A stretch of DNA of 64,000 nucleotides from Deltaproteobacteria bacterium (GTDB lineage: Bacteria; UBA10199; JACPAL01; JACOUP01), in assembly GCA_016177765.1 (NCBI GenBank), contig JACOUP010000002.1, forward strand, positions 62,001-126,000, written 5' to 3'. How positions within the stretch are numbered: the first letter of the stretch is position 1; each line of letters opens with the position of its first letter. The notes under the pieces are model-generated. The model worked only from the letters and a program-made list of their open reading frames with translations. It did not search any database and was not told the DNA's origin. The position numbers and the translations under genes are program-made. Shown here in pieces: positions 18,018 to 29,472 of this stretch.

Positions 18018-18614
18018 ATGCAACTGGCTGTCGCCAAGAAGAGTGATTCGCTCAAGAGCGATTCGCCCGAAGGAAAACGGGAAGAACTGGGGCAGGCGAG
18101 GGACAGTTTTATTGAGAGTGTTGGCAAGATCACGGCCAACATGCTCGGGATGGTTTCCAAGGTGGGGGGTCAGATTTATGCCCTGCTTTTCCTTTCGCGA
18201 CAGCCGCTTTCCCTCGATGAGATTTCCGACATCCTCAAACTCTCCAAGGGGAATGTGAGCGTCAACATCCGGCTTTTGGAAGAAACGAAACTGGTTCGCA
18301 AGGTCTGGGTGAAAGGTTCCCGCAGGGATTACTATGAGGCCCACCGGGATTACCCCCGCCAGTTTTTAAAGGGGTTTTTCGACCGTGTCCGGGGGGGGAT
18401 CGAGGACTCCATCCGTTTGTTGCACCGGTGTCACAACCAGTTTGAAAAAGCCTCCGGTCAGCTGACCGGGCCGGATCTGGAAGACGGCCGGTTTATGGTC
18501 CAGCAGCTGGCCCTGCTCGCCTCTTTCTATGAGGCGGCCGGAGGGATGTTTGACGATTTCTACCAGGGGCGTTCTGTCGATACCGATCTCCTCCGTCGCG
18601 TCATCCTGGAATAG
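18018..18614 (+). CDS. GbsR/MarR-type transcriptional regulator
   Basis: The 198-residue product has a winged-helix domain (FLSRQPLSLDEISDILKLSK, then GNVSVNIRLLEETKLVRKVW, a wing GSRRDYYEA) and a C-terminal helical dimerisation part, the layout of the GbsR subfamily. The first 25 residues are a polar extension with two near-copies of a 15-bp unit (SDSLKSDSPEG). It starts divergently next to the MFS gene, a typical regulator-exporter pair, and is followed within 5 bp by the receiver-HAD gene. Confidence 0.82.
   Translation: MQLAVAKKSDSLKSDSPEGKREELGQARDSFIESVGKITANMLGMVSKVGGQIYALLFLSRQPLSLDEISDILKLSKGNVSVNIRLLEETKLVRKVWVKGSRRDYYEAHRDYPRQFLKGFFDRVRGGIEDSIRLLHRCHNQFEKASGQLTGPDLEDGRFMVQQLALLASFYEAAGGMFDDFYQGRSVDTDLLRRVILE
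18041..18068. repeat. Divergent copies of the 15-bp unit
   Basis: GAGTG-ATT-CGCTC (18041-18053) and GAGCG-ATT-CGCCC (18056-18068) lie 15 bp apart and mirror GGGTG-ATT-CACCC with paired or wobble changes in both arms. They could be decayed members of the family or a sister family; coincidence is possible. Confidence 0.4.
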
Positions 18615-19662: not shown

Positions 19663-20063
19663 CATCGTCACGAGCGCTTCGACTCCTTTGGTTTTTCGGC
19701 ATGGCATTGTGCCTGGTTGCGGGTTGTTCCGTTTCCCCCTCCGAAGAAACGGCTCGTCGCTTTGTGGATGTCTACTACCTCCAAATTGATCTCGAAGAGG
19801 CCCAAGGGGTCACGGAGGGCCTTGCCCGTGAAAAGATAGAGGGGGAGATCCGGCTCAAGACAGGGCAGACGATTGCGGCGGATACCCGAAAACCAAAGAT
19901 GAGTTATAAAAAGGCCGGGCACCAGATGGATGGGGAAGGGGAGGTCTATTTTTTTGAGTTGCGTATCCAACCAAAGGATTTCCCGGAGATTCAAAGAAAA
20001 TTACGGATCGTTGTGAGAAAGGGAGAAAAATCGTGGAAGGTCACACAATTCTCGGAGGGGTGA
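19659..20063 (+). CDS. Small lipoprotein
   Basis: From ATG 19659 (overlapping the previous stop as ATGA) the 134-residue product has a lipoprotein signal: basic MTSSRALR, a hydrophobic core, and lipobox LVAGC at about residues 20-24. The mature part is one small alpha/beta domain (ARRFVDVYYLQIDLEEA, VYFFELRIQPKDF, LRIVVRKGEKSWKVTQF) resembling DUF4878/NTF2-like accessory lipoproteins. Its stop codon TGA is contributed by the first 15-bp repeat unit (GGGTGA at 20058-20063). Confidence 0.8.
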   Translation: MTSSRALRLLWFFGMALCLVAGCSVSPSEETARRFVDVYYLQIDLEEAQGVTEGLAREKIEGEIRLKTGQTIAADTRKPKMSYKKAGHQMDGEGEVYFFELRIQPKDFPEIQRKLRIVVRKGEKSWKVTQFSEG

Positions 20064-20941
20064 TTCACCCGAGGGTGAGTCACCCCAGGGTGGTTCACCC
20101 TGGGGCCGTCCGCCGCTCCAATTTTTATCTCTCCCTCTTTTTTCTTCCGCCGCGGAAACGAAAGGCGATGACCGCCATTTATTCCTTTGCACGGCTTGTG
20201 GATGATATCGTTGACGAAGAGGGAGAGAGGGAAGAAAAAGAACGCGAACTCCAGTTCTGGAGAGAGGAGATCAAAAGGTGCCTGGAGGGGGCCGCCCAAA
20301 CACCGCTGGGACGGGAACTCTCCCTTGTCATTCAGGGTCACCAGCTTTCAGAAGTCTATTTTCAGGAGCTGATCAATGGGGTGGCGATGGACCTCTCCCG
20401 GGACCGTTATGCCACCTTCGAGGAACTTTGCGGTTACTGCTACGGTGTTGCTGGCACCGTTGGATCGATTTGTATGGAGCTCTTTGGGCTGAGGCATGAA
20501 CGGGCCATGGAGTATGCTAAGACCCTGGGGCGGGCCTTTCAATTGACGAATATTCTACGGGACATTATTGCCGATCTGGAACAAAATCGGGTTTATCTGC
20601 CGCAGGAGGATTTGAGGCGATTCGGTGTGACGGAAGAGGATCTCCGAGGTCATCGCGATAGCGATGCCTTTCGGACCCTGATCGGTTTTGAGGTTCAAAG
20701 GGCCTTCGCCTGTTTTCAACAGGTCCAGGGGCTCCTGACGCCGGAAGAAAAAAGAAAAATTGTCGCCGCCGACGTGATGGGGGCGGTTTATTCCAGGATC
20801 TTGCGGGAGATTGCCAAATCCCCTTCCCGTATTTTCAGGGAAAAAGTTTCTCTGGACCCGGTTACCAAACTTTCACTCGCCCTGCAAACCTGGTTTAAGA
20901 ACCAGTTTACGCAAAAGGGAAGGGGACCAGAAGAGAAATAG
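20033..20941 (+). CDS. hpnD: Squalene/phytoene synthase family enzyme, HpnD-like
   Basis: This family condenses two farnesyl (or geranylgeranyl) diphosphates; HpnD makes presqualene diphosphate. Both Asp-rich motifs are intact: RLVDDIVDEEGER near residue 58 and LTNILRDIIADLEQNRVYLP near 177, with YCYGVAGTVG between. The likely start is GTG 20033 with GGGAG seven bases upstream, overlapping the lipoprotein gene by 31 bp. The N-terminus then contains VIHPRVSHPRVVHPG from three 15-bp units; without it the length before RRSNFYLSL is what HpnD proteins usually have. GTG codons inside each unit (20060, 20075, 20090) are alternative starts. HpnD versus phytoene synthase cannot be settled by eye. Its 3' end overlaps the next gene by 69 bp. 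Confidence 0.75.
   Translation: MEGHTILGGVIHPRVSHPRVVHPGAVRRSNFYLSLFFLPPRKRKAMTAIYSFARLVDDIVDEEGEREEKERELQFWREEIKRCLEGAAQTPLGRELSLVIQGHQLSEVYFQELINGVAMDLSRDRYATFEELCGYCYGVAGTVGSICMELFGLRHERAMEYAKTLGRAFQLTNILRDIIADLEQNRVYLPQEDLRRFGVTEEDLRGHRDSDAFRTLIGFEVQRAFACFQQVQGLLTPEEKRKIVAADVMGAVYSRILREIAKSPSRIFREKVSLDPVTKLSLALQTWFKNQFTQKGRGPEEK
20058..20100. repeat. 15-bp unit array, 3 units, at a gene junction
   Basis: GGGTG-ATT-CACCC (20058), GGGTG-AGT-CACCC (20073) and GGGTG-GTT-CACCC (20088), exactly 15 bp apart. The first supplies the TGA stop of the upstream lipoprotein; all three are read as VxHP(R/G) in the squalene-synthase frame. Confidence 0.85.
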
Positions 20942-21808
20942 GGAGAGCAGTGCGACGGTATAAACCTCTCGTCGTGTCACCTTCTGCCCCTCGGGCAGGC
21001 GCAATGTTTTAAACCCGAGGAGGAGAGGAATCAGACAAACTCCCCTCAACCGGACCGACCAGAAAGGGATCTCCTGAATGTAGAGCCATCCCGATTCAAG
21101 GAGGTCTCTCGCCTGTTTCAGGTAGACAGCCTGGGATTCTAAGGGGTTGAGGTAGTTGCGGCCCCGTTCCTGATCCCGGTGTTGATCCCTCAGGATGTTC
21201 ACCCACTGCAACCCCTTGCCAAACCGGATCCCCAGATCGGCCATTCGCCCCAAGTCCCATTTTTTGAGGGAGTTAAAATGGGAAACCAGGACCCGGGTCC
21301 AAAATTTTCCGACAACACCGGCAACATAATAGGTGTATTGGTCCAGTTCCCGAGGATTGAGAGATCGTTTTGCCGAATGGCCCTGACCGAAAATTTTTAA
21401 ATCCATCACCATCCCCAAGGTGAGTTCCAGCACGAGGTCCTTGAGGAGTTGCTGATCGGCCGGGGGGAGTGATTCTAAAAGGGAGAAACAGGCGGAAAGG
21501 TTGGCCACCAACTTTTCTTCGTCCGGCAGGCCTCCTCCGGTAACAATTTTTGTGCTGATCTCGCTTAATTCCTGGGTATCGTTTTCCTCGATGAACTGTT
21601 TCCGGTAAAGGCTTAATATTTTCAGCCGCTCCTCGGCGGGGATCAGGTCGGTATCGGCAATCGTGTCTGCCGCCCGGCAGAAGAGATACCCGAGCCCCAT
21701 GGTGTGACGGATTTTTTTGGGGAGGAAGATGAGGCTGAGATAGATCGACCGCGAAACTCCTTTAAGGATTTTTTTGAGGTTGCACCCTTTCTGAACCCAG
21801 AAATTCAT
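20873..21808 (-). CDS. Squalene/phytoene synthase family enzyme (second)
   Basis: A second trans-isoprenyl head-to-head synthase, 311 residues from ATG 21808. Asp-rich motif 1 is CRAADTIADTDLIPAEERL (about residue 45) and motif 2 is NILRDQHRDQERGRNYLNPL (about 205), with DQYTYYVAGVVG between. The C-terminal hydrophobic stretch (VYTVALLSLFLFW) suggests membrane attachment as in squalene synthases. It is more similar in style to single-enzyme squalene synthase than to HpnC, judged by eye. It converges on the HpnD-like gene with 69 bp of coding overlap. Two such enzymes together suggest squalene or a C30/C40 product; no cyclase or carotenoid desaturase is visible here. Confidence 0.82.
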   Translation of the reverse strand: MNFWVQKGCNLKKILKGVSRSIYLSLIFLPKKIRHTMGLGYLFCRAADTIADTDLIPAEERLKILSLYRKQFIEENDTQELSEISTKIVTGGGLPDEEKLVANLSACFSLLESLPPADQQLLKDLVLELTLGMVMDLKIFGQGHSAKRSLNPRELDQYTYYVAGVVGKFWTRVLVSHFNSLKKWDLGRMADLGIRFGKGLQWVNILRDQHRDQERGRNYLNPLESQAVYLKQARDLLESGWLYIQEIPFWSVRLRGVCLIPLLLGFKTLRLPEGQKVTRREVYTVALLSLFLFWSPSLLRKLVLKPGLQGE

Positions 21809-21885
21809 CTCTGCAAAATAGGACAGGATCCTCAAAGGGGCAAGAAATATATTGAAGGGAACGAGTCAATGGGGTATTAAGCCGC

Positions 21886-22947: not shown

Positions 22948-23662
22948 AAAACCAAAGGGTGCTTCACCCAAGGGTGTGCCACCCAAGGGTGTGCCACCCA
23001 AGGGTGTGCCACCCAAGGCAATCCTCTTTGATTTTGACGGTGTCCTGGTCGATAACGAACCGATCCACCTCAAAATGTTCCAAAAAGTCCTGGCTGAAGA
23101 AGGCGTCCGGCTGACCCGGCAGGATTATTACACGAAATATCTGGGGATGGACGACAAAGGTTGCTTTTCGGCTGTTCTGAAAGCGGCGGGCCGGCCGACA
23201 TCCGTTGCTTATCTTCATCTGCTGACCCGGAGGAAGACCCGTTGCTATAAGGAGTTTGTCGCGAAACACCTCAAATTCTTGCCGGGGGTCAAAGAATTTA
23301 TCCAGGAGGCTTCAAAGAATTCTTGTTTGGGGATTGTCTCCGGGGCCCTTCGCGAAGAGATTTTGCTGATCCTTGGCCTCGGGGGGCTGAAAAAATATTT
23401 TTCAGTGATTGTCAGCGCAGAAGATGTCAAAAATGGCAAACCGAACCCGGAAGGGTACCTGCTGGGATTAAAAAAACTCTCTGCCTTTCACAAAGAAAAG
23501 ATTTTCCCCCGTGAAACGTTGGTCGTGGAAGACTCCCTATGGGGGATCGAAGCGGCCCACCGCGCCGGGATAAAATGCCTCGCTGTCACCACCTCGTACC
23601 CGGCCAGCCAACTCAAAAAAGCGGATTGGGTCGTCAAGGAACTTTCCCAATTTTTAATTTAA
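22940..23662 (+). CDS. HAD-superfamily phosphatase (beta-phosphoglucomutase-like) with repeat-encoded N-terminus
   Basis: A 240-residue HAD subfamily IA hydrolase: nucleophile motif ILFDFDGVLVDNEPIHLKMF, cap domain, motif II GIVSGAL, Lys in VKNGKPNPEGYLLGL, and motif IV LVVEDSLWGIEAAHRAG. It resembles phosphoglycolate phosphatases and beta-phosphoglucomutases; the substrate is unknown. ATG 22940 overlaps the greA stop (ATGGATAA). Between the start and the first strand lie four 15-bp units encoding KGASPKGVPPKGVPPKGVPPK, so the extra residues lie directly in front of the DFDG strand. Apart from this head the protein has normal length. The 3' end overlaps the convergent hydrolase gene by 9 bp. 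Confidence 0.9.
   Translation: MDKKPKGASPKGVPPKGVPPKGVPPKAILFDFDGVLVDNEPIHLKMFQKVLAEEGVRLTRQDYYTKYLGMDDKGCFSAVLKAAGRPTSVAYLHLLTRRKTRCYKEFVAKHLKFLPGVKEFIQEASKNSCLGIVSGALREEILLILGLGGLKKYFSVIVSAEDVKNGKPNPEGYLLGLKKLSAFHKEKIFPRETLVVEDSLWGIEAAHRAGIKCLAVTTSYPASQLKKADWVVKELSQFLI
22957..23014. repeat. 15-bp unit array, 4 units, longest in the window
   Basis: GGGTG-CTT-CACCC at 22957, then GGGTG-TGC-CACCC at 22972, 22987 and 23002, all with AA linkers. The last three units are identical, which points to recent tandem expansion. Confidence 0.9.
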
Positions 23663-24298
23663 AAAGGGATTGTTGGCCTTTTCAAGGCCGACGGTTGTCT
23701 TGGGGCCGTGCCCCGGGATGATGACCGTTTCTTCCGGGAGGATCAGCAGTTTCTTCTTGATCGACCGGATCTCCTGATCGTAATCCCCTTTCCATAAGTC
23801 AGTCCGGCCGATGCTTCCGGCAAACAGGGTGTCGCCGGCGAGCAGAAGAGGGGTCTTGCCCCCTTTGGGGAAATGAAAGGCACAGCTTCCCGGGGTGTGA
23901 CCCGGTGTGTGGATCACCTCTCCCTGAACTTTTCCCGCCTGGAGGGCTTGCCCCTCGGTCAAGTATTCATCCACCGGCACCGGCCTCATGGTTTTGGTCG
24001 GTGGAAGACCAAGGTAGGAAGCCTGCTCGGCGATCTTTTCGTAGAGAAAAAGATCTTCTTTGTGGATCAGGACACGGGCATTGGTCTCCCTTTGCAGTTC
24101 GGTGGTGGCCCCGATATGGTCGATATGGGTATGGGTGTGGAGGATCGATCGGACCAGGAGTCCCTGTTTTTTGATGATTTTTAGAATTTTCTCAACAGCG
24201 TCACCGGGATCGATCACGATCGCCTCTTTGGTCGCCGGATCCCCAAGGATGATGCAGTTACACTGAAAAAGACCGACAGGGATTACTTTGAGGATCAT
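23654..24298 (-). CDS. MBL-fold hydrolase, glyoxalase II-like (YcbL type)
   Basis: The 214-residue metallo-beta-lactamase-fold enzyme has the zinc motif THTHIDHIG (HxHxDH near residue 57), His in HTPGHTPGSCAF, Asp in LLAGDTLFAGSIGRTD, and a last ligand His in IIPGHGPKT. It resembles the YcbL/short glyoxalase II group acting on thioesters. ATG 24298 is chosen (AAGAG upstream, MILKVIPVG is a normal first strand); the frame is open further upstream but without homology. Confidence 0.88.
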   Translation of the reverse strand: MILKVIPVGLFQCNCIILGDPATKEAIVIDPGDAVEKILKIIKKQGLLVRSILHTHTHIDHIGATTELQRETNARVLIHKEDLFLYEKIAEQASYLGLPPTKTMRPVPVDEYLTEGQALQAGKVQGEVIHTPGHTPGSCAFHFPKGGKTPLLLAGDTLFAGSIGRTDLWKGDYDQEIRSIKKKLLILPEETVIIPGHGPKTTVGLEKANNPFLN

Positions 24299-24430
24299 TT
24301 TTCTCTTACAACACAATTCTTTTTTATTGACAAGGCGGCCCGGCCTCTGTAGAAGAATTTTAAATTTACTGAGTGTTTTCAATGGTTTAGAACGTTTAGA
24401 ACAACCGAAATAACATAAAGGAGTCTCAAG

Positions 24431-26398
24431 ATGGCTGTCGCCTACAACGAGCTAGAGAAGATGCAACAAGAAGCGTTGCGGGGTGATTCACCCAGGGGTG
24501 AACTCCACTCCCGACCCCTGGAAACAGGGCTGACCCCCCGTAAATACCTTGAACTGGTCTTGAGCCGAACCGCCAAGGTGGCGTGGTATCTGACCCAGTT
24601 TGTTAACACCTTAATCGGCGAGGGTCTGTCTTTTCAGGCCAAGTGGATGCCGGCACCGGCTGTGAAGAGCCGGGAAAAGACATTTCCCCAACTCGGATGG
24701 CCGCGAAAGACCGACTCGCTCTGTCCCAAGTGTGTTAAGGAGGTGCGGGAGGCGATCATTGCCGGGCATCAGGACTATACGGCCCTGATCCACTCGAAGC
24801 CGGGCGAGATCAAGGCGGCCATTGTTGAGAAGGATGGGAAGATCCTGATGGTCAAGGATTGTCCCAAGCATGGCCACTTTGAAGATGTCATGTCGATCGA
24901 TCCGGAATTCCTGGCAAGGATTGAAAAACTCTACCCAGGGCGGGATTTTAAATCGCCGAAGACAAACCTGCGCAATCATGGGAGCTCCTCGATCCAATAC
25001 GGGAGAGGGGCTGTTCTGACCGTTGACCTCACCAATCGGTGCAACATGATGTGTGACCCCTGCTTTATGGATGCCAATCAGGTCGGTTATGTCCACGAGC
25101 TCTCCTGGGAAGAAGTGCAACAGATTCTGGATAATTCCCTGCAGATCAAACCTCGGCGCCAGATGAGCGTTCAGTTCTCCGGCGGCGAGCCGACCCTTTC
25201 CCCCTACTTTCTGGATGCGATCCGGTATGCCAAACAGATCGGCTATTTTTCAGTGCAGGCGGCGACCAATGGGATCCGCTTTGCCGAGGATCCTGATTTT
25301 GCCAAAGCGGCCTATGAGGCCGGGATGCGCATCGCCTATCTCCAATTCGACGGCGTTGGCAACCTGAGCAATCAGCATCGCAAGATTTCGAACCTCTTTG
25401 ATGTCAAGCTGAGGGCTATCAACAATCTGGCAGCCGCAGGGATTGATGTCGTCCTCGTGATCACACTGGTCAATACGGTGAATAATGACCAGGTGGGGCC
25501 GATCATTGATTTCGCTATCCAGAATTCGGATAAAATCACCTTCTGTTCCTTTCAGCCGGTTTCCTTCACCGGACGTGATGAAGATGTGGATGATGAGACA
25601 AGAACAAAACAGCGCTATACCCTCTCCCATCTGGCCCATGATGTGAAGAAGCAGACCGGTATTTCAGAACCTTTGAGGGACTGGCTTCCCCTTTCAGCGA
25701 TCGGTCCCTTTTCGGACGTTGCCGATCTGATGAGAGGGCCGGAGAAGGAATGGGGGAGTCTCAAGTGTGGTTGTCATCCCAATTGCGGCATCGGGATGGG
25801 GCTTTTGGTCAACAAGAAGACCAAGGAGTGGTTGCCCCTTTCCCAATTCATGGATCTCCCCCAATTGATCAAGGATTTCGAGAAAATCCATGACAACGCC
25901 CGTGGCAGCTTCTGGACAAAGACCCAAGTGGCGATGTCGATCCTCCGGAACTACGATCCGATCAAATCACCCAAAAAACTGACCCTGAAAGATCTTCTCA
26001 AGAAGATTGACAAGCAGAGCGGCGGCACGGTCGGCGGCGGCGATTATGGTGTCGGGGCGGAGAGAAAGAAAGACACCTGGCTCTTCATGTTCATCGCGGG
26101 GATGTGGTTTCAGGATCTCTTCAACTATGACTTCCGCCGGACGGAGATGTGCATTATTCCGTATGCCACCCAGCTGGGGGAGGTTTCCTTCTGTGCCTAT
26201 AATACCGGTGTCGGCTGGAGGAACATTATTGAAAACATGTTCAAGAACGCATCAGTCGCCCAGTGGTACAAGGAAAAGGGGCGGCATACAGTCTACGCCG
26301 GCAACCGGCCAATGTCGATTCCCTCCTGGGAGCATGATGTCTGGGTTCCCGAGGATGCGGATACCAACATCAAAAAACTTCCGGTGTATCCTCACTAG
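24431..26398 (+). CDS. Large radical SAM enzyme, tetraether/membrane-spanning lipid synthase-like
   Basis: The 655-residue protein has an N-terminal Cys domain (LCPKCVKEV near residue 97 and MVKDCPKHGHFEDV near 140), a central radical SAM barrel with NRCNMMCDPCF (CX3CX2C, near 204) and SVQFSGGEPTLSPY, and further Cys clusters in LKCGCHPNCGIGMG (about 445) and RTEMCIIPYATQ with VSFCAYN near the end. This arrangement, CPxC / CPxHG, CX3CX2C, CxCHPxC, is what I know from Tes, the archaeal enzyme that joins lipid tails into tetraethers, and from bacterial homologues linked to membrane-spanning lipids. The neighbouring convergent gene is a phospholipid head-group transferase, which agrees. AAAGGAG precedes the ATG. 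One 15-bp repeat unit plus a decayed second one lies near the N-terminus (LRGDSPRGELHS). Confidence 0.78.
   Translation: MAVAYNELEKMQQEALRGDSPRGELHSRPLETGLTPRKYLELVLSRTAKVAWYLTQFVNTLIGEGLSFQAKWMPAPAVKSREKTFPQLGWPRKTDSLCPKCVKEVREAIIAGHQDYTALIHSKPGEIKAAIVEKDGKILMVKDCPKHGHFEDVMSIDPEFLARIEKLYPGRDFKSPKTNLRNHGSSSIQYGRGAVLTVDLTNRCNMMCDPCFMDANQVGYVHELSWEEVQQILDNSLQIKPRRQMSVQFSGGEPTLSPYFLDAIRYAKQIGYFSVQAATNGIRFAEDPDFAKAAYEAGMRIAYLQFDGVGNLSNQHRKISNLFDVKLRAINNLAAAGIDVVLVITLVNTVNNDQVGPIIDFAIQNSDKITFCSFQPVSFTGRDEDVDDETRTKQRYTLSHLAHDVKKQTGISEPLRDWLPLSAIGPFSDVADLMRGPEKEWGSLKCGCHPNCGIGMGLLVNKKTKEWLPLSQFMDLPQLIKDFEKIHDNARGSFWTKTQVAMSILRNYDPIKSPKKLTLKDLLKKIDKQSGGTVGGGDYGVGAERKKDTWLFMFIAGMWFQDLFNYDFRRTEMCIIPYATQLGEVSFCAYNTGVGWRNIIENMFKNASVAQWYKEKGRHTVYAGNRPMSIPSWEHDVWVPEDADTNIKKLPVYPH
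24481..24493. repeat. 15-bp unit in the radical SAM gene
   Basis: GGGTG-ATT-CACCC followed 2 bp later by a partial GGGTGAACTCC, probably a decayed second unit; in frame. Confidence 0.75.
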
Positions 26399-27255
26399 TT
26401 TTTTCGCGGCGGAAAGAGTTCATCCCACCAGGCGAGAAACCTGAAGGAAGGGTAGGTGGGCGGGTCGAGCCTCCGGATGATGTAAAACATCCGGTACAAA
26501 GCGGTCAGGTTCGTCATCACGGCAATTAATACCAGAACCCCGACAGTTACAAAATCAACGTGGACGTTGATGAAGGGAGAAAGGAAATAGGCCAGGATCG
26601 GGCTGAAGACCGAACCGACCCCCAGGTAGACAATCCTCTCGGCCCTCTGCATGATGCCGCCGCGGCACTCAACCCCGACCCCCTCACCCCGGGCACGGGT
26701 ATAAGAAACCATCATGGAGCCGACAAGGCCAAGAATGACAACAGGCAGGAGCCAGCTGTCCTTATAAAAACCGGCCAGCCCCAAAAAGACAACCGCCTCC
26801 CCGAAACGGTCCATCACCGAATCAAAAAAGGCCCCCGATTTGGATTCCCTGCCGGTTAACCGGGCAATTCTTCCATCGATAATGTCACAGGTCGCCCCGA
26901 AGATCATGGTCCAGCCGCCGAGTCCCAGCATCCCCTTGTAGAAAAAATAGGCTGAAACGGCTGAAAGAAGGAAACCACAAACCGTGAAAAAATTGGGTGT
27001 CAGGTGGAGTTTCACCGCTCCCCTTTCAAACGGCCCGATGAACCAATACCACCATTCCTTGAGAAACCGGCTCAAGAAACGGGAATGGGCCTTGCGGTCG
27101 ACATCTTCACTGTTCCGAACCCTTTTCTCATAAGTGAGTCCGAAAAAGAGAATGGTGAGCATGAGTGTTACGTTAAAGGCCAGCAACGGCCCGAGAGAGA
27201 GCCAGAGAGGATTGCTATTTTTCAAGGCAGTGATTTGGAGGATTTTTTCCAGCAT
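26395..27255 (-). CDS. CDP-alcohol phosphatidyltransferase
   Basis: Inner-membrane enzyme that transfers a phosphatidyl group from CDP-diacylglycerol to an alcohol. The catalytic signature D-x2-DG-x2-AR-x8-G-x3-D-x3-D is complete in CDIIDGRIARLTGRESKSGA plus FFDSVMDRFG (about residues 122-151). Around six helices are predicted. At 286 residues it is longer than PgsA because of an N-terminal helix and a soluble segment (TYEKRVRNSEDVDRKAHSRF). The substrate (glycerol-P, inositol-P or other) cannot be read from sequence. It overlaps the radical SAM gene by 4 bp, tail to tail. Confidence 0.87.
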   Translation of the reverse strand: MLEKILQITALKNSNPLWLSLGPLLAFNVTLMLTILFFGLTYEKRVRNSEDVDRKAHSRFLSRFLKEWWYWFIGPFERGAVKLHLTPNFFTVCGFLLSAVSAYFFYKGMLGLGGWTMIFGATCDIIDGRIARLTGRESKSGAFFDSVMDRFGEAVVFLGLAGFYKDSWLLPVVILGLVGSMMVSYTRARGEGVGVECRGGIMQRAERIVYLGVGSVFSPILAYFLSPFINVHVDFVTVGVLVLIAVMTNLTALYRMFYIIRRLDPPTYPSFRFLAWWDELFPPRKN

Positions 27256-27409: not shown

Positions 27410-27577
27410 ATGGAAAACATTTTAAGAATCATCACCCAGCCGGATAATATTGCGATCCTTGTGATGTTGATTGCCGTTATCGCCTGTACGGTTGTTGCCT
27501 TCAGAGAAGCGATGATCAACGATCGATTCATCAAAAAAGGGGAGAAGGAAAAAATCTACGAAAGAATGACCCGCTGA
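27410..27577 (+). CDS. 55-residue single-TM protein
   Basis: MENILRIITQPDNIAILVML begins a small protein with one hydrophobic helix (residues 14-31) and a charged, cytoplasm-like tail (EAMINDRFIKKGEKEKIYER). Its stop overlaps the ompA-like ATG (TGATG), so it is translated with that gene. Such genes are easily missed. Function unknown; the coupling suggests an envelope role. Confidence 0.65.
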   Translation: MENILRIITQPDNIAILVMLIAVIACTVVAFREAMINDRFIKKGEKEKIYERMTR

Positions 27578-29472
27578 TGCGCTTGTTTTCTTTCAAATTC
27601 CCGGTTTATTTTTTTATGCTCTTCTCTTTTTTGTTTTGGCCGGCCGCCTCTTTTGCCAAGAGCGCTTCTTATGATGCCCTCCTCTTCAAGCCGGCTACCG
27701 ATACCGGACTTTATCTTGGCGTCTACGGGGCCGATAATCTCGACCAGTGGGATTACTCCTTCGGGCTTTATGCGGATTACTCCAAAAATGCCCTCAAGAC
27801 CTTTACCGGGGCGGGAGCCTTGATCGGTTCGGTGATCGATTATAATATCGTCGGGAATTTCTACGGGGCGGTGGGGCTCCTTCCTTTTTTGAGCGCCGGC
27901 CTTGATTTCCCGGTCGCCTTTCTGGAATCATTCAACGACCCGACCTCGGGGGGCAATTCCAAACAGGTTCAGGCGGGCGACCTCCGGCTGGATTTTAAAT
28001 TAAAGGCCCTGGATCATTATCGGTTTCCGGTCGGGATTGCGATTGTCCCCTTTGTTACTTTCCCAACAGGGTCTGATACCTATTTTACCGGTTCTGGAAA
28101 ATTCACCGGCGGGGGACTTGTCGTTATCGATTCGCCGCGGCTCTTCGACCGGTTTTCCGTTTCGCTGAATACCGGTTACCTGGCCAGGGCAAAGAGTACA
28201 GTCGTTTCCGGGACCACGATGGATGACGAGTTTTTGTACGGCCTTGGGGCCAATATTGCGGTCCACAAGTCGATTGATCTTATTGCCGAGGTTCGCGGCA
28301 GTACCCTCGTCTCCAATTTTTTCAAAAAATCAACCCAGTCGCCGCTCGAGGGGGAAGGGGCCATTCGTTACTATATCCCCAACATTCCCCTGGCCCTGAC
28401 GGCCGGTGGCGGTGCGGGAATTACGAAGGGAGTGGGGACGCCGCAATTTCGGGTCCTTGCCGGTGTTGCCTATGTCACCCCTCGTCCGTTCGGTGTCTCG
28501 GAATATTCCTTGTACGAATTCAGGGTTCCCCCAGAATCGGTCTATGAGCTTTCCGACAAATGTCCTTACAGTCAGGGAGATTTTGACACTTCCAAGGACA
28601 ATCCCCAGTGTTCCGAGGTTTACATCTTAAGAGAACTATCCGCCGAATGTCCTGAAGAGGCGTTGTATGACCCCCAGAGAGACAATCCCAACTGTGCCAA
28701 GGTCTATGTTTATCAGGAACAGGATAAAGATCGTGATGGCCTGACAGACTTCAAAGATCAGTGTCCCGGAGAGGCGGAGGTCTTCAACGGTTATCAGGAT
28801 GATGATGGCTGTCCGGATGACCTGAAGGCGCTTGTCCTGACGGAAGATCAGCTAGTGACACAACGGATCTTCTTCGACTTTGACAAGGCGACCTTGAAGC
28901 CGATCTCGGAAACGAATATAGAAGAGGTCGCCAAGGCACTCGTTCTGCATACTGAACTTCTGAAGGTTGAGGTCCGAGGTCACACGGACAATGTCGGCAA
29001 TTCCGATTATAACCTTGATCTCTCTCAAAGAAGGGCCAAGACAGTTATGGGTCTCCTTGTGGGTCAGGGGGTGGACAAAAAGAGACTCATCTCCAAGGGC
29101 TTGGGGGCCACCAAACCTCTGGGGACAAACCGGAACGAAGAGGGAAGGGCCAAGAACCGCCGTGTTGAATTCATCATCCTCAAGAGAGACGAGTCACAAC
29201 CAGTCGGCGAGAGTGTCCCGGCGCCAGCGCTGTTGCCGGAATCGGTTCCTGAATCACTGCCCTTGCCCCCACCTGAGGCCGGAGAGGTCCCTCCTTCCGG
29301 AGGGGGAGATGATGAGGATCTGAAGGAAGAGAAAAAGATTGTGAGAAAGGTCAAGACGATTCACAAGAAGGCTTCCCCTAAACCGCCGATGACGCCGGCA
29401 ACCGATGCTCCCGCACCAGAGACTGAAAGCGCGCCCCATCCAGAAACTCAAGAGGCGCCAGCTCTCCAATAG
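27577..29472 (+). CDS. OmpA-family protein: barrel, calcium-type repeats, OmpA peptidoglycan-binding domain
   Basis: A signal peptide (residues 1-27, ends AASFA) is followed by a 270-residue beta-barrel region, then Asp-rich thrombospondin type 3-like repeats (DKDRDGLTDFKDQCPGEAEV, YQDDDGCPDD), and an OmpA domain (FFDFDKATLKPISETN, VEVRGHTDNVGNSDYNLDLS, RRAKTVM, NRRVEFIIL) that binds diaminopimelate of peptidoglycan. The last 100 residues are a Pro/Glu/Lys-rich tail after the OmpA domain, which is unusual because OmpA is normally C-terminal. It tethers the outer membrane to the wall. The final 95 bp overlap the convergent gene. Confidence 0.92.
   Translation: MRLFSFKFPVYFFMLFSFLFWPAASFAKSASYDALLFKPATDTGLYLGVYGADNLDQWDYSFGLYADYSKNALKTFTGAGALIGSVIDYNIVGNFYGAVGLLPFLSAGLDFPVAFLESFNDPTSGGNSKQVQAGDLRLDFKLKALDHYRFPVGIAIVPFVTFPTGSDTYFTGSGKFTGGGLVVIDSPRLFDRFSVSLNTGYLARAKSTVVSGTTMDDEFLYGLGANIAVHKSIDLIAEVRGSTLVSNFFKKSTQSPLEGEGAIRYYIPNIPLALTAGGGAGITKGVGTPQFRVLAGVAYVTPRPFGVSEYSLYEFRVPPESVYELSDKCPYSQGDFDTSKDNPQCSEVYILRELSAECPEEALYDPQRDNPNCAKVYVYQEQDKDRDGLTDFKDQCPGEAEVFNGYQDDDGCPDDLKALVLTEDQLVTQRIFFDFDKATLKPISETNIEEVAKALVLHTELLKVEVRGHTDNVGNSDYNLDLSQRRAKTVMGLLVGQGVDKKRLISKGLGATKPLGTNRNEEGRAKNRRVEFIILKRDESQPVGESVPAPALLPESVPESLPLPPPEAGEVPPSGGGDDEDLKEEKKIVRKVKTIHKKASPKPPMTPATDAPAPETESAPHPETQEAPALQ

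Follow-up and report, generated by a model that had tools for sequence, protein, structure and literature searches.

A radical SAM gene and a phosphotransferase gene converge in the window

In the window, that is the whole stretch of 64,000 nucleotides that was analysed, the gene of a radical SAM protein (rSAM) and that of a CDP-alcohol phosphotransferase (P0002) are positioned tail to tail, as had been described in a first-pass annotation of this DNA, and overlap by 4 bp. The rSAM gene starts with an ATG, is preceded by AAGGAG 8 nt 5' of this codon and comprises 655 codons. Since the two genes are convergent and overlap, they do not share a common transcript in the window genome. This genome has a size of 1.92 Mb and is 96.5% complete, and its phylum was sampled by 46 genomes, all belonging to one class. 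The following features are referred to in the text:

18018 to 18614, + strand: MarR/GbsR-type helix-turn-helix regulator (PF12802), 5.8 kb from the rSAM gene
24431 to 26398, + strand: Tes-like radical SAM (rSAM) gene, 655 aa, proposed lipid tail-to-tail coupling enzyme of the three-site clade
24536 to 24616, + strand: predicted N-terminal helix, residues 36-62 (AlphaFold2, pLDDT about 81-93), preceding the rubredoxin site
24722 to 24871, + strand: rubredoxin-like iron site with C98, C101, C144 and H147 (CxxC...CxxH, PF23545)
24965 to 24988, + strand: site of the absent N-terminal auxiliary [Fe4S4]N cluster, with N179, H183 and S186 in place of MJ0619 C73, C77 and C80
25040 to 25063, + strand: radical SAM [4Fe-4S] motif C204-x3-C208-x2-C211 (CX3CX2C), invariant in 127/127 clade members
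25766 to 25786, + strand: C446-x-C448-H-P-x-C452 in the C-terminal cluster region, invariant in 127/127
26102 to 26194, + strand: C-terminal auxiliary cluster ligands and catalytic loop, with M558, C574, Y578 and C588
26395 to 27255, - strand: CDP-alcohol phosphotransferase P0002, 286 aa, phosphatidylinositol-phosphate-synthase-like, convergent with rSAM

Two squalene/phytoene synthase genes are located 2.6-4.4 kb upstream of the window rSAM gene. In eight sister-family loci (L055, L057-L061, L064 and L068), an orthologue of the MarR/GbsR-type regulator is found directly upstream of rSAM.

The rSAM protein is related to Tes in sequence and predicted fold

In Pfam searches the rSAM protein matched PF04055 (Radical_SAM, E=5e-18) and, with residues 91-155, PF23545 (HMPTM zinc ribbon, 7.8e-14), a model that takes its name from the old annotation of MJ0619. 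Its top NCBIfam family was Tes (NF045702, about 327 bits, E=1.5e-97), and the closest solved protein by sequence was GDGT-MAS/Tes (7TOL/7TOM; phmmer 6e-65, profile 8e-110), with about 31% identity to MJ0619. The score of 327-328 bits does not reach the equivalog cut-off of NF045702 (450 bits). Likewise, clade members from Acidipila, Bryobacteraceae and Sorangium scored 323-336 bits, and 4/4 scanned members remained below the cut-off, whereas five Tes proteins of the window's phylum that carry the N-terminal cluster (N-cluster Tes) reached 482-527 bits. The second NCBIfam family, the radical SAM (seleno)protein TrsS (NF045646), was a weaker match than Tes, with 213 bits against a cut-off of 490. 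Selenocysteine was discarded as a candidate, the in-frame TGA codons of some acidobacterial homologues being ordinary terminal stops.

The AlphaFold2 model of the rSAM protein had a pTM of 0.84 and a mean pLDDT of 75, with the cluster loops at low confidence. Foldseek ranked 7TOM and 7TOL first (TM 0.80, target length), and in a structural alignment 472 of the 498 residues of 7TOM were superimposed with a Z of 33.1 and an rmsd of 3.4, while the next structural family, MoaA, gave a Z of 18.4. The model reproduces the overall Tes fold, including the rubredoxin, the radical SAM and the C-terminal cluster domains. Structure prediction had been proposed earlier as a check, and it returned the GDGT-MAS fold; by alignment, however, one of the extra cluster sites is lacking. 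The predicted helix of residues 36-62 is outside the part that aligns with MJ0619, the 7TOM alignment beginning at model residue 90. Its hydrophobic moment is modest, and it may touch the membrane.

One of the four metal sites of archaeal Tes is missing throughout the clade

Residues were compared in an alignment of 127 three-site clade members, MJ0619 and 11 bacterial N-cluster Tes-type proteins. MJ0619 is numbered as in Lloyd et al. (PMC9433317), which equals the chain numbering minus 20 and was anchored on Met439 and Tyr459; the C-terminal cluster set C338/C455/C470 was assigned by alignment. The Cys motifs quoted in the first-pass annotation all exist in the rSAM protein (C98PKC101, C144PKH147G, C204-x3-C208-x2-C211, C446-G-C448-H-P-N-C452, C574 and C588).

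Much of GDGT-MAS/Tes (MJ0619; 7TOL, 7TOM; NF045702) is retained, with a common fold over about 470 residues. C98, C101, C144 and H147 of the rubredoxin-like site are identical in 127/127 clade members, C144 and H147 corresponding to MJ0619 C33 and H36, and the CX3CX2C motif is shared. In the C-terminal region C452 corresponds to C338, and M558, C574, Y578 and C588, which are invariant in 127/127, correspond to the labile Met439, C455, Tyr459 and C470, respectively. Met439 and Tyr459 were reported to be completely conserved across 1000 archaeal homologues (PMC9433317). The Tyr459 equivalent was found in 127/127 three-site members versus 5/11 of the N-cluster bacterial Tes. MJ0619 F106 and the loop residues Q268, S271 and R275 of that enzyme are kept as well. 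The invariance of the ligands and catalytic residues across 127 proteins is a sign of strong purifying selection on the catalytic function.

Unlike MJ0619, the rSAM protein has an N-terminal extension with the predicted helix, and the invariant C446 and C448 are extra relative to the archaeal enzyme. MJ0619 has Ser334 at the C448 column, and C448 is common to most N-cluster bacterial proteins. Arg210, which contacts 5'-deoxyadenosine in MJ0619, is replaced by Lys318 and is variable in the clade; His458 is replaced by Pro577, which is invariant in the clade. A further difference concerns the [Fe4S4]N cluster. None of its Cys (columns C73, C77 and C80) was present in any of the 127 clade members, in which these columns hold variable residues, His and Ser, respectively, whereas 11/11 N-cluster Tes-type proteins carry all three. 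The archaeal Cys layout that had been assigned to the protein therefore applies to its rubredoxin, radical SAM and C-terminal ligands but not to N179, H183 and S186, and the expectation of four metal sites has to be given up, the N-terminal auxiliary [4Fe-4S] site being absent in 127/127. The alignment defines a three-site Tes-type clade that has lost one of the four metal sites of the archaeal enzyme.

The three-site clade extends over Acidobacteriota and Myxococcota

The 127 three-site members belong to the phylum of the window genome, to Acidobacteriota and Myxococcota, and to a few other groups. In an IQ-TREE analysis the clade was separated from N-cluster Tes with an SH-aLRT of 100, in agreement with the split in NCBI scores (482-527 versus 323-336 bits). 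The depth of this split is uncertain: the only archaeal sequence, MJ0619, was taken as residues from the PDB alignment and is long-branched, as is L048 in the quick tree. Phylogeny, another check that had been proposed, identifies a Tes-type relative, but in a fully supported clade apart from N-cluster Tes.

Outside the phylum, close relatives (57-70% identity) were found in Acidobacteriota and Myxococcota (Sorangium, Polyangium and Minicystis), and single matches occurred in contigs titled Gemmatimonadetes and Acidimicrobiia. A Tes-type match was detected in 136/247 sampled Acidobacteriota genomes; assigned by best E-value, about 117 of these have a member of the three-site clade and 19 the N-cluster type only. 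Acidipila rosea (class Terriglobia) has one Tes-type gene only, which belongs to the three-site clade. Within the window's phylum the three-site clade (23 genomes) and N-cluster Tes (5 genomes) were never found in one genome, counted without correction for relatedness, which fits alternative enzymes for one job. In Acidobacteriota, both branches can share a genome. At two loci (L184 and L185) an N-cluster Tes gene is located about 3-6 kb from the clade member, and no lipid gene was recognised in between. The recurrent neighbours of the acidobacterial clade genes are mostly QueG-like or unrelated, and no terpenoid genes were found among the recurrent neighbours at acidobacterial and myxobacterial loci.

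The neighbouring phosphotransferase is a core head-group gene

P0002 matched PF01066 (4e-16) and contains the complete CDP-alcohol motif DxxDGxxAR...GxxxDxxxD, as DIIDGRIARLTGRESKSGAFFDSVMD. It is closest to phosphatidylinositol (PI)-phosphate and archaetidylinositol-phosphate synthases, matching three models of this family below their curated cut-offs (NF040950, 146 bits, cut-off 180; NF052561, 142 bits, cut-off 350; NF045883, 116 bits, cut-off 170). The window genome also encodes a myo-inositol-phosphate synthase (PF07994, 349.5 bits, G000:C8:1323981), in keeping with an inositol head group.

In 17 of the 23 rSAM-bearing genomes of the phylum the phosphotransferase gene immediately adjoins rSAM, in 6 of them in the convergent orientation of the window and in 11 co-directionally with a short gap. 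The phosphotransferase itself is present in 43/46 genomes of the phylum, with or without rSAM. In G002, a sister genus, both flanks of the locus are syntenic and the phosphotransferase persists at 77.5% identity, while the rSAM gene and its metallo-beta-lactamase neighbour are absent, indicating that rSAM is dispensable. In seven sister genomes without rSAM the phosphotransferase forms part of a longer open frame (about 760-784 aa); in both of the frames that were scanned, it is fused to a PF01663 phosphodiesterase-type domain. Outside the phylum, adjacency of the two genes was not seen in Acidobacteriota or Myxococcota.

The phosphotransferase is therefore a core PI-phosphate-synthase-like head-group gene that is linked to rSAM and not its dedicated partner, as it occurs in many genomes that lack rSAM. 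The lipid context which had been read from the gene pair is borne out as a linkage, but not as a dedicated pairing. A dedicated two-gene lipid cassette was rejected on account of the 43/46 occurrence and the non-adjacent genes of Acidobacteriota and Myxococcota.

A proposed tail-coupling enzyme without the N-terminal cluster

Branched GDGTs (brGDGTs) underlie widely used past-climate temperature and pH proxies, and the bacteria that make them as well as their tail-joining enzyme are only partly known. Mss, ascribed to Sahonero-Canavesi et al. 2022, is reportedly a bacterial membrane-spanning lipid synthase that couples fatty-acid tails. AlphaFold models of Mss were reported to show the catalytic architecture of Tes (PMC13274423), and metagenome surveys keep Mss separate from Tes homologues (PMC11868695). 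MJ0619 was shown to couple two phytanyl chains via an intermediate that is bonded to a C-terminal cluster sulphur, and activity was retained in a methionine mutant (PMC9433317). Zeng et al. 2022 proposed 456 bacterial Tes homologues, including those of Acidobacteria and Proteobacteria, as brGDGT makers (PMC8941075); they probably include clade members under the same proposed role and appear to be treated there as one set. Here, two branches are distinguished, N-cluster proteins above the NCBI cut-off (members tested in the window's phylum) and three-site proteins below it. As of 2025 the brGDGT role of bacterial Tes homologues was described as unconfirmed (PMC11868695). Iso-diabolic acid is made in acidobacterial subdivisions 1, 3, 4 and 6 (PMC13274423) and amounts to 12-30% in Edaphobacter species, which like Acidipila belong to the Terriglobia (PMC11354219). 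Solibacter usitatus has brGDGTs without detectable iso-diabolic acid and two Tes homologues (PMC10087280), implying no simple relation of gene to product.

We consider it probable, at roughly 0.6, that the rSAM protein is a Tes-type enzyme that would link two saturated lipid tails at their methyl ends and thereby give rise to membrane-spanning lipids. This reading is favoured because of the match to Tes in sequence and fold, the invariant catalytic residues, the tree and the synteny with a head-group gene, all of which uphold the Tes relationship proposed in the first-pass annotation (NF045702, E=1.5e-97; 7TOL, 6e-65). It is further supported by the distance between 7TOM and MoaA in the structural comparison and by the spread of the clade in the phylum of the best-known iso-diabolic acid and brGDGT makers (about 117/247 genomes). 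Lipid pathway genes of the window genome were checked by targeted search, and a BcrAD_BadFG/DUF2229 activase of 1159 aa, its gene coupled to a downstream one, adds to this support; we take it to be of the protein type of the ester-to-ether enzymes PlsA/Ger. Judged from sequence, membrane-spanning lipids in the window organism are plausible.

In such a reaction, two SAM-derived 5'-deoxyadenosyl radicals would each take a hydrogen, one after the other, from the two tails. The C-terminal cluster would hold the first tail radical in the form of a carbon-sulphur bond until the second attacks the stored tail and an sp3-sp3 C-C bond is made, as was demonstrated for MJ0619. The most likely substrate would be a bacterial fatty-acyl or alkyl phospholipid, perhaps iso-branched, with its head group already attached; inositol-type head groups are possible in view of the linked PI-phosphate-synthase-like gene and the myo-inositol-phosphate synthase. 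Electrons would probably reach the radical cluster without a surface N cluster.

Several observations weigh against tail coupling. The score of 327 versus 450 bits, the missing [Fe4S4]N site and Lys318 in place of Arg210 set the protein apart from Tes, and the substrate cannot be read from an identity of about 31% to MJ0619. Some Acidobacteriota may use Mss as a separate enzyme, and both the case of Solibacter usitatus and the dispensability of rSAM in the sister genus have to be considered. A Tes-like active site might instead carry out another radical reaction on membrane lipids, such as in-chain cross-linking, cyclisation, desaturation or thiolation of tails, and yield no membrane-spanning lipid. 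The long branch that separates the clade from archaeal Tes, the extra invariant CxC beside the C-terminal cluster, the invariant Pro577, the loss of Arg210 and the absent N cluster would agree with this, and the radical SAM enzymes Grs and Gms perform other chemistry on the same lipids as Tes (PMC11186832). We nevertheless regard it as rather unlikely, given the invariance of Met439, Tyr459 and the three C-cluster Cys, which are associated with coupling, and the wide distribution of the clade among the Acidobacteriota.

It seems improbable that the Tes fold was recruited to a non-membrane substrate, for instance a long-chain cofactor, a quinone or a hopanoid/carotenoid side chain, with the phospholipid gene as inherited synteny. 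The head-group linkage outlasts a change of orientation, with a short-gap co-directional pair in 11 genomes, and terpenoid genes are not among the recurrent acidobacterial and myxobacterial neighbours; in favour of it are the persistence of the phosphotransferase without rSAM in G002, the squalene/phytoene synthase genes upstream and a neighbour that is not conserved outside the phylum. Archaeal-type isoprenoid tetraethers, that is true GDGTs made by a bacterium whose lipids resemble those of archaea, could be suspected from the best model of P0002, archaetidylinositol phosphate synthase (146 bits, below 180). However, P0002 matches bacterial PI-phosphate synthase models nearly as well, and a clade spread over ordinary Acidobacteriota and Myxococcota makes true GDGTs very improbable. 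We regard it as just as improbable that the protein is a Tes relative that has degenerated or lost its activity and persists in some other function: it lacks one metal site out of four, but the other ligands and the catalytic residues are invariant in 127 proteins from several phyla.

Returning to tail coupling, we suggest tentatively, and with more doubt than for the enzyme itself, that the clade may constitute a distinct bacterial tail-coupling class without [Fe4S4]N. It would then be the missing synthase of iso-diabolic acid and brGDGT cores in Acidobacteriota, and membrane-spanning lipids would be predicted in cultured myxobacteria (Sorangium, Polyangium and Minicystis) and in the window's uncultured phylum, for which no report of such lipids was found in the literature consulted. 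Both bacterial Tes homologues and their proposed role in the synthesis of membrane-spanning lipids are already published (PMC8941075, PMC11868695). A subfamily that lacks the N-terminal cluster, has an invariant CxCHPxC and includes cultured myxobacteria was not found stated in the literature consulted and is new here. If the clade couples tails, Tes chemistry would not require the N-terminal cluster. Being sharply bounded and differing from archaeal Tes in one clean structural feature, the clade provides a specific gene to delete or express, and since culturable myxobacteria and acidobacteria carry it, the question can be put to the test now.

Distribution of the radical SAM gene and its paralogues

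When the window was compared with L223, a locus from the sister genus, the radical SAM and metallo-beta-lactamase genes were found to form one block (window 23636-26407), which is present in the window and cleanly absent from the sister genus, with synteny kept on both flanks. In Acidobacteriota, a second, more diverged paralogue subclade was detected (50-57% identity to the window protein, e.g. in genomes G082, G095, G143, G162 and G198), in which the three-site architecture (rubredoxin site, radical SAM cluster and C-terminal cluster ligands) is unchanged and which often co-occurs with the main copy.

A QueG-like epoxyqueuosine reductase gene recurrently adjoins or lies near the radical SAM gene in two phyla, in differing orientations:
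L063, L066, L067 and 11 acidobacterial loci (L080, L100, L107 and others): QueG-like gene near the radical SAM gene

QueG-like epoxyqueuosine reductase has two [4Fe-4S] clusters.

Phosphotransferase fusions and other genes

In seven genomes of the window's phylum lacking the radical SAM gene, the phosphotransferase lies within an open frame of ~760-784 aa. The two long frames scanned, from among these seven genomes, encode fusions of the phosphotransferase with a PF01663 phosphodiesterase/alkaline-phosphatase-type domain, which is perhaps a PI-phosphate phosphatase.
Loci L217-L221, from sister genomes in this phylum: long phosphotransferase frames, ~2.3 kb each

Elsewhere in the window's genome lies a gene pair that may represent a PlsA/Ger-type enzyme converting ester to ether lipids:
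G000:C8 ~624349-629410 (L216:2350-7411): tandem BcrAD_BadFG/DUF2229 activase, 1159 aa, and an overlapping 533-aa gene without a Pfam match

Further genes were noted in the window:
27577-29472 (+): large outer membrane protein with an OmpA domain
20033-20941 (+) and 20873-21835 (-): a pair of squalene/phytoene synthase genes, overlapping tail-to-tail

Most of the OmpA-domain protein aligns with the model for TraB, an outer membrane exchange protein, at 186 bits against a cut-off of 700. One of the two synthases is HpnD-like, scoring above the HpnD cut-off, and the other is divergent.
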